From Nocardioides pocheonensis (GTDB lineage: Bacteria > Actinomycetota > Actinomycetes > Propionibacteriales > Nocardioidaceae), in assembly GCF_003725535.1 (NCBI RefSeq), contig NZ_RJSF01000038.1:447-64446 (forward strand): a stretch of 64,000 bases of DNA. Reading direction: 5' to 3'. Made by a program: the position numbers and the translations under genes. The notes beneath the pieces are model-generated. The model searched no databases. It had not been told where the DNA came from and worked only from the letters and a program-made list of their open reading frames with translations. Shown here piece after piece: positions 23,509-36,896 of this stretch. Numbering within the stretch: the stretch's first letter is position 1; every line of letters starts with the position of its first letter.

Positions 23509-24435
23509 TCAGGGCGTCCGCGGGACGAGGGTCAGGAGGGTCGCCTCGGGCCGGCAGCAGAACCGCACCGGCGCGTACGGCGAGGTCCCCGCACCGGCCG
23601 AGACGTGCAGCCACGACGAGCCCGGGTCGCCGGGCTTGGACGATGCCGGGTGGCGGTGCAGGCCCTTCGCGCGGGCGGTGTCGAGGTCGCAGTTCGTGAC
23701 CAGCGCACCCTTGATCGGCAGGCACAGCTGACCGCCGTGGGTGTGGCCGGCGAACACGAGCTCGTGGCCGTCGCGGGCGAACTGGTCGAGCACCCGCAGG
23801 TACGGCGCGTGGGTCACCCCGACGCGCAGGTCGGCGTCCTGGGGAGCAGGACCCGCGACGGCGGCGAGGTCGTCGTACTCGAGGTGGGGGTCGTCGACAC
23901 CGGTGAAGGCGAGGTCGACGCCACCGACCGTGAGCCGGTCGGTGGTGTTGCTCAGGTCGAGCCACCCCGACTCGACGAACCCGGCGCGCAGGTCCTTCCA
24001 GGGAAGCTGGGGGCTGTGCACGTTGCGCTTCCCGTCGTCCGGCAGCAGGTAGCGCACCGGGTTGCGCAGCGTCGGGGCGAAGTAGTCGTTGGACCCGAAC
24101 ACGAACACGCCGGGCACGTCGCGCAGCCGGCCGAGCGCGGCGAGCAGGGGCTCGATGCTGTCGGGGTGGGCGATGTTGTCGCCGGTGTTCACGACCAGGT
24201 CGGGCTCGAGGCGCGACAGGGAGTCCAGCCAGGCGAGCTTGTGCGCCTGCCGCGGGGTCAGGTGCAGGTCGCTGAGGTGGAGCACCCGCAGCGGTCGGCT
24301 GCCGGGCGGCAGCACGGGCACCTCGACGCGACGCAGGGTGAAGGCGCGGACCTCGACGCCGGCGGCGTACCCGACGCCCGCCAGACCGGCCAGGACGCCG
24401 GCGCCGAGCACGCGAACGAGGGGGGAAGGGGCCAC
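23509..24435 (-). CDS. Membrane-anchored metallophosphoesterase
   Basis: This 308-residue protein has an N-terminal hydrophobic segment (VLGAGVLAGLAGVGYAAGV), then a complete calcineurin-type metal site: HLSDLHLTPR, VVNTGDNIA, FGSNDYF (in place of GNHD), THAPYL and FAGHTHGGQLCLP. This is the YaeI-like family. M. tuberculosis Rv3683, next to ponA2, is the likely counterpart. The substrate is unknown; YaeI-type relatives have been linked to UDP-sugar-lipid pyrophosphatase or phosphodiesterase activity. I prefer GTG at 24435; an upstream TTG at 24453 is possible. Confidence 0.85.
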   Translation of the reverse strand: MAPSPLVRVLGAGVLAGLAGVGYAAGVEVRAFTLRRVEVPVLPPGSRPLRVLHLSDLHLTPRQAHKLAWLDSLSRLEPDLVVNTGDNIAHPDSIEPLLAALGRLRDVPGVFVFGSNDYFAPTLRNPVRYLLPDDGKRNVHSPQLPWKDLRAGFVESGWLDLSNTTDRLTVGGVDLAFTGVDDPHLEYDDLAAVAGPAPQDADLRVGVTHAPYLRVLDQFARDGHELVFAGHTHGGQLCLPIKGALVTNCDLDTARAKGLHRHPASSKPGDPGSSWLHVSAGAGTSPYAPVRFCCRPEATLLTLVPRTP

Positions 24436-33995: not shown

Positions 33996-34828
33996 GCCCG
34001 GCGTCGTCCGGGTGGGCGGGCGGGTCCTTCGGCGAGCGCGCCCGGTGCGTGCTCGCGCCGAACGCGAACATCATGACGCTCGACGGCACCAACACCTGGG
34101 TGCTCCACGAGCCGGGTGCGCGCCGGTCCGTCGTGATCGACCCCGGTCCGCCCGACCCCGGCCACCTCGCGGCGGTCGAGGCTGCCTCCGAGGAGCTGGG
34201 GGCCGGGTCGGTCGGGGTGGTGCTGCTGACCCACCACCACGTCGACCACTCCGAGTCGGCCCGCGGGTTCGCCAAGCGGATGGGTTGCGGGGTCCGGGCG
34301 CTCGACCCGGCGTACCGGCTGGGGGAGGAGGGGCTCGGCGACGGCGACGTCGTCGAGGTCGACGGGCTGGAGATCCGGGTGGTCGGCACCCCCGGGCACA
34401 CCGCCGACTCGCTGTCCTTCCTGCTGCCTGCCGAGCAGGCCGTGCTCACCGGCGACACGGTGCTCGGCCGCGGCACCACGGTGGTGGCCCACCCCGACGG
34501 CCAGCTGGGCGCCTACCTGGACTCCCTCGACCGGCTGCACGCCCTCGCCGAGCGCCACGAGGTCGAGCGGATCTGGCCGGGCCACGGACCGGCGATCGAC
34601 CAGGCCCTCGGCGCCCTCGACTACTACATCGCCCACCGCCACGAGCGCCTCGACCAGGTCCGCGCCGCCCTCGCCCAGCTCGAGTCCGCCCCCCACCCCG
34701 AGGGCATCTCCGTCGACGAGCTCCCCCGCCGCGTCGTCGAGATCGTCTACACCGACGTCGACCCCGTCCTCTGGGGCGCCGCCGAGCTCTCCGTCCGCGC
34801 CCAGCTGGCCTACCTCCAAGCTCGTTGA
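33992..34828 (+). CDS. MBL-fold metallo-hydrolase (Rv3677c / LACTB2-like)
   Basis: This 278-residue protein has PNANIMTLDGTNTWVL, the metal motif LLTHHHVDHSES (THxHxDH), VVGTPGHTADSLSFLL, LTGDTVLGRGTTVV and IWPGHGP. This is the LACTB2-like group; some members cleave RNA. The GTG start overlaps the NUDIX stop. The stop codon at 34826 lies within the first copy of a 22-bp iteron, and the final residues (QAR) are encoded within or next to the terminal inverted repeat of the downstream cassette. Confidence 0.9.
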   Translation: MSPASSGWAGGSFGERARCVLAPNANIMTLDGTNTWVLHEPGARRSVVIDPGPPDPGHLAAVEAASEELGAGSVGVVLLTHHHVDHSESARGFAKRMGCGVRALDPAYRLGEEGLGDGDVVEVDGLEIRVVGTPGHTADSLSFLLPAEQAVLTGDTVLGRGTTVVAHPDGQLGAYLDSLDRLHALAERHEVERIWPGHGPAIDQALGALDYYIAHRHERLDQVRAALAQLESAPHPEGISVDELPRRVVEIVYTDVDPVLWGAAELSVRAQLAYLQAR

Positions 34829-34909
34829 GTTGGGGGTTCGTCCCCGTCGAGTTGGGCCTTGGTTCCGTCGAGTGGGGGATTTGTGCCGCACCAGTGGCGA
34901 GTTCGTTCC
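34823..34909 (+). repeat. Left iteron array of the AbiEi/DUF559 cassette
   Basis: There are four direct copies of a 21-23 bp unit: 34823-34844, 34845-34865, 34866-34886 and a degenerate 34887-34909. The consensus is CGTYGAGTTGGGG followed by GTTCGTKCC. The first copy contains the MBL gene's TGA stop. The outermost 37 bp (34820-34856) match the inverted right end (36037-36001) at 35 positions. Confidence 0.88.
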
Positions 34910-34988
34910 CGGTGACCCCGTAGAACACGGTCCCTGATCCGGCCGGTACGCCTCCACAGGCCCCGTACCACGCCCAGCGTCCACCGCA

Positions 34989-35954
34989 ATGAAGCCACGC
35001 ATGGCCTCACCTGGAGGCCCGGTCGAACCTGCCCGAATGGTGCCCACGTTCCCGCAGCGACCCTTCACGACCCGCCACGCCCAAGCTCGGGGGATCCCGC
35101 GCAAACGACTCGTGGCGGCTGAGCAGGTGGGCGTCCTCCGCCGGGTGCTCCGCGGCGTCTACGTGCCTGCGGACCTGGACGACACGCTCGAGCTGCGAGC
35201 GACGTGCGCGTCCCTGGTGGTGGCTCCTGGCTCCGTCGTGCGTGATCGCACGGCTGCCTGGATCCATGGTGTCGACGTCCTCACCCACACCGAGCACGAG
35301 CTGCTTCCCCCGGTAGAGACGTGTGTGCCGCGCTTCCGCGCACCCAGCGACCGCCTCGGTGTGGACGGCGGCACCCGGGATCTTGCTCCCCAGGACGTCA
35401 TGACGGTGCACGGTCTGTCCGTCACCACCCCACTCCGGACCGCGCTCGACCTGGGATGCAACCTACGCCGTCGGGATGCGCTCGCCGCGCTCGATCAGTT
35501 CGTGCGGTTGCACGAGCTCACTCGGGAGGAGATGGCCCGCACTGCGCAGCGCTATTTCCGGAGGCGCGGGGTGGTGCAGCTGCGCAGGCTGATCCCGCTC
35601 GCCGACGGCCGGGCGGAGTCGCACCGGGAGTCGTGGACGCGGCTGGAGATCCTCGATGCCGGACTGCCTGCGCCCGAGCTCCAGTACTGGATCGAGGTCG
35701 ACGGCGTCCCGACCTACCGGCTAGATCATGCCTATCCGCGGCATCGGGTCGCGGTCGAGTACGACGGCGAGGACTTCCACGACCGCACCGAGGCACAGAG
35801 ACGGCACGACCGCGAACGCCGCGCCTGGCTCGAAGCACACGGCTGGACCGTGATCGTCGTGCGCAAGGGCGACTTCACCGGCGGAAGCTGCGACCGCTGG
35901 CTGCGCGAGCTGCGGCGAGCCCTCCGGCCGACGTACACGAATCGGCGCTGGTGA
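34989..35954 (+). CDS. AbiEi-type winged-helix plus DUF559 (restriction-endonuclease-like) protein, solitary
   Basis: The protein has up to 321 residues. Residues about 18-75 look like the AbiEi antitoxin winged helix (FTTRHAQARGIPRKRLVAAEQVGVLRRVLRGVYV). The middle region is helical. The C-terminus (about 225-310) has ESHRESWTRLEILDAGLPAPELQYWI, YRLDHAYPRHRVAVEYDGEDFH and RDRERRAWLEAHGW, the DUF559/Vsr-like nuclease pattern with acidic candidates in YRLD and VEYDG. No AbiEii toxin gene is present. Starts at 34989, 35001 and 35037 are all possible; none has an ideal ribosome site. It is the sole cargo of a 1218-bp unit bounded by inverted iteron arrays. Confidence 0.82.
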   Translation: MKPRMASPGGPVEPARMVPTFPQRPFTTRHAQARGIPRKRLVAAEQVGVLRRVLRGVYVPADLDDTLELRATCASLVVAPGSVVRDRTAAWIHGVDVLTHTEHELLPPVETCVPRFRAPSDRLGVDGGTRDLAPQDVMTVHGLSVTTPLRTALDLGCNLRRRDALAALDQFVRLHELTREEMARTAQRYFRRRGVVQLRRLIPLADGRAESHRESWTRLEILDAGLPAPELQYWIEVDGVPTYRLDHAYPRHRVAVEYDGEDFHDRTEAQRRHDRERRAWLEAHGWTVIVVRKGDFTGGSCDRWLRELRRALRPTYTNRRW

Positions 35955-35967
35955 GCGGAGCCCTCCC

Positions 35968-36034
35968 GGCAACGAAGTCCCAACTCAACAGGAACGAACC
36001 CCCAGCTCGACGGGCACGAACCCCCAACTCAACG
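35968..36034 (-). repeat. Right iteron array of the AbiEi/DUF559 cassette
   Basis: On the minus strand there are three direct copies: 36034-36013, 36012-35991 and 35990-about 35968. They share the consensus of the left array and are inverted relative to it. The first copy contains the crp TGA stop (36029-36031). Confidence 0.88.
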
Positions 36035-36706
36035 AGCGCGGCGCTTCATCCGTTCGACGTCCATGATCACGACGGAGCGGGGCTCGAGGCGGAGCCAGCC
36101 GCGGGAGGCGAAGTCGGCGAGGGCCTTGTTCACGGTCTCGCGGGAGGCGCCGACCAGCTGGGCGAGCTCCTCCTGGGTGAGGTCGTGGTGCACGTGCACG
36201 CCGTCGTCGGCGGTGCGGCCGAAGCGGTCGGCGAGGTCGAGCAGCGCCTTGGCGACGCGGCCGGGCACGTCGGAGAAGACCAGGTCGGCGTTGACGTCGT
36301 TGGCCTTGCGCAGCCGGCCGGCGATCTGCGAGAGCAGGCCGAGCGCCACCGCGGGGCGGCCCTCGAGCCAGCGCATCAGGTCGTCGTGAGCCAGGGAGAG
36401 CAGGGTGGTCTCGGTCACCGCGGTCACCGTCGCGGAGCGCGGGCCGGGGTCGAAGAGCGACAGCTCGCCGAACATCTGGCCCGGGCCGAGGATCGCGAGG
36501 AGGTTCTCCCGGCCGTCGGAGGAGGTGCGCCCCAGCTTCACCTTGCCGTCGGTCACCAGGTAGAGCTTGTCGCCGGAGTCCCCTTCGTGGAAGAGCACCT
36601 CACCGCGACGAAGCCGCGCCTCCGTCATCGACGAGCGCAGAGCCATGGCGGCTTCGTCGTCGAGGGCGCCGAACAGCGGGGCCTGACGCAGTACGTCGTT
36701 GTCCAC
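36029..36706 (-). CDS. crp: Crp/Fnr-family transcriptional regulator
   Basis: This 225-residue protein has a cyclic-nucleotide-binding domain ([42 protein letters not shown]) and a C-terminal HTH ([29 protein letters not shown]). Size and sequence match mycobacterial Crp (Rv3676), a cAMP-responsive global regulator. The GTG at 36706 is chosen because AAGGA lies 8 nt upstream; an ATG at 36733 would bypass it. The protein ends KRRAR, as I recall for mycobacterial Crp, so the downstream iteron insertion abuts the native stop rather than truncating the gene. Confidence 0.94.
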
Positions 36707-36896
36707 GGCCAATCCTTCCAATGGTGCGGCCATCCACGATGAGGGCGGCCGGAACCGGCCAACCCCCAGTGTTTCAGGTCACAGTCTGGCCCATCGGCGC
36801 GTTCCACGTCACGGGACCCCGCCTTCGCGCCCGTCCGGGGGACCCGCAAGCCCTGTGGCGGAGGCCGTTCACGCGCGCCCGCGTACTCTTCTCCTC

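Follow-up and report, generated by a model that had tools for sequence, protein, structure and literature searches.

The spread of short repeats of the repetitive extragenic palindromic (REP) type, and the reason for their retention in genomes, are an open question, addressed here starting from a locus of the actinobacterium Nocardioides pocheonensis. The nearest known systems include Tn7-type ends, which go with the TnsA nuclease and consist of 22-bp TnsB sites, and homing endonucleases of the I-Bth0305I class, named EDxHD. RAYTs, the enzymes of the REPIN-RAYT system, are single-copy and at the species level mostly congruent with the species tree, according to one study (PMC3116915), and another describes one REP class without any dedicated transposase (PMC3733652). 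The AbiEi proteins of AbiE type IV toxin-antitoxin systems are autoregulators whose monomers bind 23-bp repeats pairwise and bend the DNA (PMC7319586). In the stretch of 64,000 nucleotides analysed here (contig NZ_RJSF01000038.1, positions 447 to 64,446; hereafter the window), a gene encoding an AbiEi-like part joined to a DUF559 nuclease domain stands between inverted arrays of a 22-bp iteron, and gene-less arrays of the same iteron are dispersed over the genome. We consider it probable that gene and arrays form a two-part dispersed-repeat system, comparable to REPIN-RAYT and built around an unrelated enzyme, by which arrays of the enzyme's binding sites are maintained and spread.

Results

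Arrays and gene at the window site

The left array (34823..34909, plus strand) has iterons at 34823, 34845 and 34866 and a weak fourth at 34888 (profile scores 35.4, 28.3, 27.4 and 10.4), and the right array (35969..36034, minus strand) has iterons at 35969, 35991 and 36013 (29.6, 30.1 and 35.8), so that the six iterons other than the weak one score 27.4 to 35.8. The two sets are mutually inverted. The left terminal 37 bp (34820..34856, plus strand) match the reverse complement of the right terminal 37 bp (36001..36037, minus strand) at 35 of 37 bases, and the inverted arms 34820-34866 and 35991-36037, 47 nt each, are 89% complementary. This recovers the four left and three right iterons of an earlier note on this DNA. 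At either end an array extends over the stop codon of the neighbouring gene (we call the two neighbours MBL and crp, labels taken from the earlier note without a family search): the TGA of the upstream MBL-type gene (34826..34828, plus strand; its open reading frame, ORF, ends at 34828) lies within the first iteron, and the stop of the crp-type gene (36029..36031, minus strand; ORF 36029-36733) within the outermost right iteron. With up to three mismatches, the core GTYGAGTTGGGGGTTCGT was matched six times across the window, every time at the array site, compared with a mean of 0.06 and a maximum of 1 in 100 shuffled windows. A single weak iteron-like match at 23679 (score 14.3) is probably due to chance.

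Between the arrays there is one coding-like ORF, the AbiEi-DUF559 gene (34989..35954, plus strand; supported by ORF, Pfam, relatives and alignment). It encodes 321 amino acids from the first ATG, homology beginning near 35040. Pfam gave a single match above its cut-off, DUF559 (24.3 bits, cut-off 20.6); the MTES_1575 restriction endonuclease (REase) model reached 29.9 bits (cut-off 38.2) and AbiEi_4 24.6 (cut-off 25). MTES_1575 is described as a Vsr-type REase domain in a HEPN survey (PMC3710099). AbiEi models of PADLOC also matched the protein, the best at E 3.1e-15. In the predicted structure an AbiEi fold, made of a winged helix and a second domain (35040..35606, plus strand; model residues 1-189), is joined to a Vsr/I-Bth0305I-type nuclease domain (35619..35939, plus strand; residues 194-300), in keeping with the AbiEi-like N-terminal part proposed earlier. 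Residues E197, D229, E240, H247, D257 and R260 are invariant in an alignment of 20 proteins, and their position suggests a catalytic role. The gene is under purifying selection in the pair from two Gordonia genomes (dN 0.05, dS 0.48; dN 0.025 for the nuclease part), and among the three closest relatives no part of the protein is better conserved than the nuclease. No AbiEii gene was found between the neighbours, where the AbiEi-DUF559 gene is the sole coding-like ORF (the only interval in which the toxin was sought), and no transposase model was among the matches of this sole gene of the unit. The gene is solitary, as had been claimed.

Iterons are abundant in the genome that carries the matching gene

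In the N. pocheonensis genome (G000), the core of the window iteron (family A) was matched 29 times with up to two mismatches, compared with 2 matches for the reversed pattern. The family A matches make up the window site and nine gene-less sites, after removal of a solitary match inside an ORF (C42:26033). Of these nine, most of which lie beside a stop codon, two have a single arm and seven form inverted arrays with two arms (96-375 bp). The window gene is present in a single copy, and none of the four gene matches of this genome, the window gene apart, is located at one of the nine gene-less family A sites. A paralogue of 47% identity, at C40:880819, has another iteron in its flanks, spaced at 32 bp (family B), which is matched 17 times, at the paralogue and at seven further sites. 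Two families thus exist side by side in the same genome. With gene sites included, two-armed loci amount to 8 of 10 for family A, 5 of 8 for family B and 13 of 25 for the family of the congeneric genome G010. The longest arm among the 18 family A and B loci scanned belongs to a one-armed locus with nine family B iterons (L220, G000:C36:65.9 kb). Inspected by eye, the 22-bp consensus of family A is not palindromic; many copies start with CGTC, without a REP stem. Folding of four inverted arrays, all of family A, gave better structures than shuffled sequences in 4/4 cases (z -3.9 to -6.2).

Dispersal was tested for families A and B, for those of G010 and Gordonia, and for a distant actinobacterium (G043). 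The window iteron, found 29 times in G000, had 0-5 matches in each of the 23 other genomes of the genus, and the paralogue iteron, found 17 times, had 0-1 in each. The G010 iteron, with up to three mismatches, was found 69 times in G010, many of the matches being clustered at 22-bp spacing. For the Gordonia iteron, exact matches to a 14-base core numbered 62 and 51 in the two Gordonia genomes and 1 and 0 in two Nocardioides, the reversed control giving 0 and 0, and 0 and 1, respectively. An iteron is thus frequent in the genome to which it belongs and close to background in others; shuffles, genome counts and reversed-pattern controls rule out a chance origin. In G043, a perfect or near-perfect 48-base palindrome stands on each side of the gene (L354, G043:C1:412 kb). 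Its 16-base half, with up to two mismatches, had 12 matches (four at the gene, eight further), compared with 2 for the reversed pattern, and 1, 1 and 4 in three other genomes, which is suggestive only of a dispersal of its own repeat.

The agreement, within a genome, between the dispersed iterons and the gene supports the earlier view that iterons and protein belong together. The same note had held that iterons found without DUF559 genes would argue against its proposal. Gene-less arrays do exist, so that this condition, taken literally, half refutes the proposal; but they are frequent chiefly in the genome that has the matching gene, and they are not ordinary repeats. A comparison of flanking genes between G000 and G010, based on crude gene calls, was taken to show no shared gene-less site: three of its matches were weak, and in the one strong match (L053/L206, 80% over 444 amino acids) the side on which the gene lies differed.

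The same locus in the genus, and the flanks of distant relatives

The crp gene was found in all 24 genomes of the genus, G000 included. In nine of them (G000, G003, G010, G011, G012, G015, G016, G019 and G023) it has the AbiEi-DUF559 gene as its neighbour, and in the other 15 no match to the gene was found beside crp; a gene occupying this place in all relatives, which the earlier note would have taken as a counter-argument, is thus not what is seen. On the side away from crp, the motif used for the end of the MBL-type gene detected it in G000, G012, G016 and G019 and missed it in the other five. In the gene-free genomes where it was measured, the distance between the two stops was 31 (G002), 37 (G009), 75 (G017) and 1177 bases (G014). 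The crp-type protein ends in RRAR in 23 of the 24 genomes and in RRSR in the remaining one, whether or not an array lies behind it.

Inverted arrays clearly above shuffles flank six of the eight testable copies at this locus (G000, G003, G010, G015, G019, G023), the G011 copy, which stops at a contig edge, being outside these eight. Scores for G016 (16, null maximum 14) and G012 (14, null maximum 15) were not clearly above shuffles. Iteron sequence varies by species (CGCCGAATCCGGCCTTCTGGCC being that of G010, for instance, and CGTTGACTTGGGCCTCCGTCAC that of G015), with G023 iterons close to those of the window on one side. Arm similarity among the six same-locus copies ranged from 0.12 to 0.45.

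Inverted flanks were significant at 33 of 47 distinct loci of gene relatives, compared with 0/24 for thymidine kinase (TK) and 1/24 for crp as control loci. The 47 are the testable ones among the loci fetched, many weaker matches of the relatives search having been given no locus; three loci at contig edges (L067, L085, L088) and a duplicate of L034 (L068) were left out. One of the misses, L046, was scored so because the match range cut off its array, since another set of settings gave 37 for a null maximum of 16. In the phylum, a gene match at E 1e-20 was found in 17 of 60 sampled genomes, N. pocheonensis included, and 10 of 28 distant loci passed the flank test. Five of these ten were inspected by eye: four looked palindrome-like and one resembled a 37-bp tandem repeat. 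At L355 (G084:C9), 37-bp tandem repeats are found on both sides of the AbiEi-DUF559 gene, with a hairpin-like core in each unit. The 6.2-Mb genome G065 has thirteen AbiEi-DUF559 matches (L341, L358 and others), and of its two tested loci one has significant inverted flanks and one has not.

The more alike two proteins are, the more alike their arrays tend to be (Spearman 0.25 over 33 loci, 0/2000 permutations as high), the permutation controlling the kinship of loci only partly. Mean arm similarity was 0.17 below 45% identity (109 + 233 pairs), 0.20 at 45-55% (153 pairs), 0.28 at 55-65% (26 pairs) and 0.56 above 65% (7 pairs). These values come from 33 of 38 loci, as L038, L070, L073, L090 and L091, whose flanks were not significant, were dropped; L003, L004, L044, L045, L047, L049, L050, L067, L068 and L085-L088 were outside the set. 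The pair L079/L081 was aligned over 7 residues only, and L079 and L072 carry a stop.

Placement of the arrays and turnover in Gordonia

Among 143 arms of at least two iterons, 61 had a gene 3' end within 60 bases and 11 a 5' end, as judged from crude gene calls that miscounted the left arm of the window as 5'. For the genus families alone (63 arms), 38 were at a 3' end, 4 at a 5' end and 21 at neither; for Gordonia (80 arms), the numbers were 23, 7 and 50. The gap 3' of the TK gene (L223-L246) holds three different repeat sequences in G000, G019 and G020, and in each of the three the flanks of the genome's own gene fit best, by more than 4 points. This own-flank preference is absent in 20 other genomes, G010 scoring 31 with its own paralogue and 36 with one of G000; TK was not found in G015. 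By eye, the TK gap is short and without a visible array in G011 and several others. Arrays also bracket whole stretches, at L201, L262, L281, L315 and L259.

Sites with the exact 14-base core numbered 39 in one Gordonia genome (G024) and 32 in the other (G025), of which 34 and 28 had at least two iterons. Flanks paired 22 of the 39 with 22 of the 32, the main alignments being about 84-94% identical. Iteron numbers per arm (score of at least 15, orientation allowed for by hand) were equal in six of the 22 pairs and differed in the other 16, two of which (L260, L305) are truncated by a contig end. Many sites are therefore stable while iteron number varies. Twelve of the 17 unpaired G024 sites were queried in G025, and 11 were located (the reverse query, of 10 unpaired G025 sites in G024, was outside the comparison). 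The G025 counterpart had at least two iterons at L326, L330, L331, L335 and L336, one at L329 and L334, and none at L328, L332 and L333. In one further case (L313/L327), L313, taken for an array site, turned out to be a lone match. At the junctions of L328, L332 and L333, a half-iteron-like core was seen by eye; it may be a seed or a target, or else the scar left by a loss.

Discussion

The association of gene and arrays is an observation; a proposal for how the two parts may work together is as follows. The first part would be the solitary chromosomal gene, apparently vertically inherited, whose product combines an AbiEi-type DNA-binding module with a nuclease of Vsr/homing-endonuclease type. 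The second would be the short arrays of putative binding sites of about 22 bp, typically two to four, running inward from one or both sides and placed mostly directly behind stop codons, often between convergent genes. Binding of the iterons by the protein is likely, with one AbiEi module per iteron; inverted arms could pair two sets of proteins, or fold as a single-strand hairpin. Nuclease domains brought together might then nick or cut the DNA, and repair from another array would copy, lengthen and spread the iterons, this nuclease-driven copying being the most conjectural step. If the protein keeps only the sites that it recognises, sites and protein would drift together, so that each species comes to have iterons of its own. 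More tentatively, and short of an even chance in our estimate, such break-and-repair amplification by an AbiEi-guided, homing-endonuclease-type nuclease is a further route to interspersed repeats, perhaps seeded where half sites resembling the iteron happened to lie behind stop codons, the specificities of protein and sites chasing each other; it would run in many Actinomycetota as a counterpart of REPIN-RAYT, possibly with more than one independent system per genome.

Several observations weigh against the two-part system. There is no direct sign of movement: many array sites are common to the two Gordonia, so turnover is slow, and no clear target duplication was seen by eye at the three iteron-free Gordonia sites. 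Array spacers have no common sequence visible by eye, and the arrays are therefore not copies of one unit. Called gene ends were lacking within 60 bases of 71 of the 143 arms, and significant inverted flanks at 14 of the 47 gene loci and at 18 of the 28 distant ones. Outside G010, its iteron is matched 1-8 times per genome, compared with 0-3 for the reversed pattern, so the background is above zero. Finally, ordinary-looking genes can be bracketed by arrays: presumably a ribulose-phosphate 3-epimerase gene at L201 (G010:C7:1351 kb) and, as we take them to be, uracil-DNA glycosylase genes at L262 and L281. Brackets therefore need not mean cargo.

The arrays could instead serve regulation, a genome-wide DNA-binding factor using those behind stop codons as roadblocks, terminators or mRNA-end hairpins, with a nuclease that is rarely active and sites kept for host benefit without spreading. 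Arms lie mostly at 3' ends where a gene neighbour is called (61 versus 11), inverted arrays give long hairpins, many sites are common to the two Gordonia species, and AbiEi proteins are known as autoregulators (PMC7319586). We nevertheless hold this explanation to be rather unlikely, since different species have different iterons at one and the same locus, the short gaps behind TK seen by eye to be array-free in several relatives are not what needed terminators would leave, and conservation among the three closest relatives is highest in the nuclease.

A classical mobile element, in which the gene and its inverted ends are transposon-like and gene-less arrays are MITE-like (miniature inverted-repeat transposable element) derivatives moved by cutting or copying at their ends, would account for the 35/37 terminal match, the gene-less two-armed arrays and the three sites that have iterons in one Gordonia species but not in the other. 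Yet the gene is present once in the genome and beside crp in 9 of 24 genomes; it had no match at E 1e-5 among 50,697 phage records and one at E 1e-20 among 72,556 records of a plasmid collection, on an 11.85-Mb record; some arrays are one-armed, and target duplication is not established. This makes such an element improbable. The self-mobilising cassette of the earlier note is likewise not supported, given the single copy of the gene, its place beside crp and the phage and plasmid searches, the dispersed units being gene-less arrays, and a single MITE copied around the genome is weakened by the spacers and by the one-armed arrays. That the protein is an AbiE-derived anti-phage nuclease, regulated by its flanking repeats and with dispersed arrays that are incidental, is very improbable: the PADLOC matches fit it, but there is no AbiEii partner between the neighbours, and a dispersal that tracks the gene's own iteron is hard to call incidental.

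The two-part system, which we thus prefer, suggests an undescribed way for bacterial genomes to acquire and keep short repeats. In agreement with the earlier note, no description of such a system was found in the literature by titles and the beginnings of abstracts, subscription papers and preprints being mostly outside that search. If the proposal is true, a second, unrelated class of enzyme has its own repeats, and the arrangement of an enzyme plus matched repeats arose more than once. The joint change of protein and sites would provide a natural set of DNA-recognition pairs, and a function would be suggested for a group of actinobacterial AbiEi/DUF559 proteins that now match antitoxin, defence or unknown-function families.

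REPIN-RAYT is similar in having a single-copy enzyme gene flanked by its own repeat, a matched and extragenic repeat population, and inverted repeat pairs able to form hairpins. The enzymes differ, a RAYT being an IS200/IS605-like tyrosine transposase whereas the window protein combines AbiEi with a Vsr-type nuclease, and so do the repeats, REPs being palindromic with GTAG (or CGTC) whereas those of the window are arrays of non-palindromic iterons without the GTAG tag. EDxHD/Vsr-like homing endonucleases share the I-Bth0305I/Vsr-type domain, as predicted by the model, with its conserved catalytic-type residues; the window gene, unlike theirs, is a free-standing ORF with an AbiEi-like recognition part, and its presumed targets are many and kept. 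DNA transposons and MITEs have terminal inverted repeats in common with the window unit, in which no known transposase is found. The AbiE type IV systems share the modelled AbiEi fold, and the inverted 23-bp repeats that are AbiEi binding sites (PMC7319586) resemble the iterons; the window gene, however, has no adjacent AbiEii toxin and has an extra nuclease domain, and its repeats stand on both sides of the gene and are dispersed over the genome. With the logic of REPIN-RAYT, an unrelated enzyme and differently built repeats, the AbiEi-DUF559 gene and its arrays are best classed as a system of their own.

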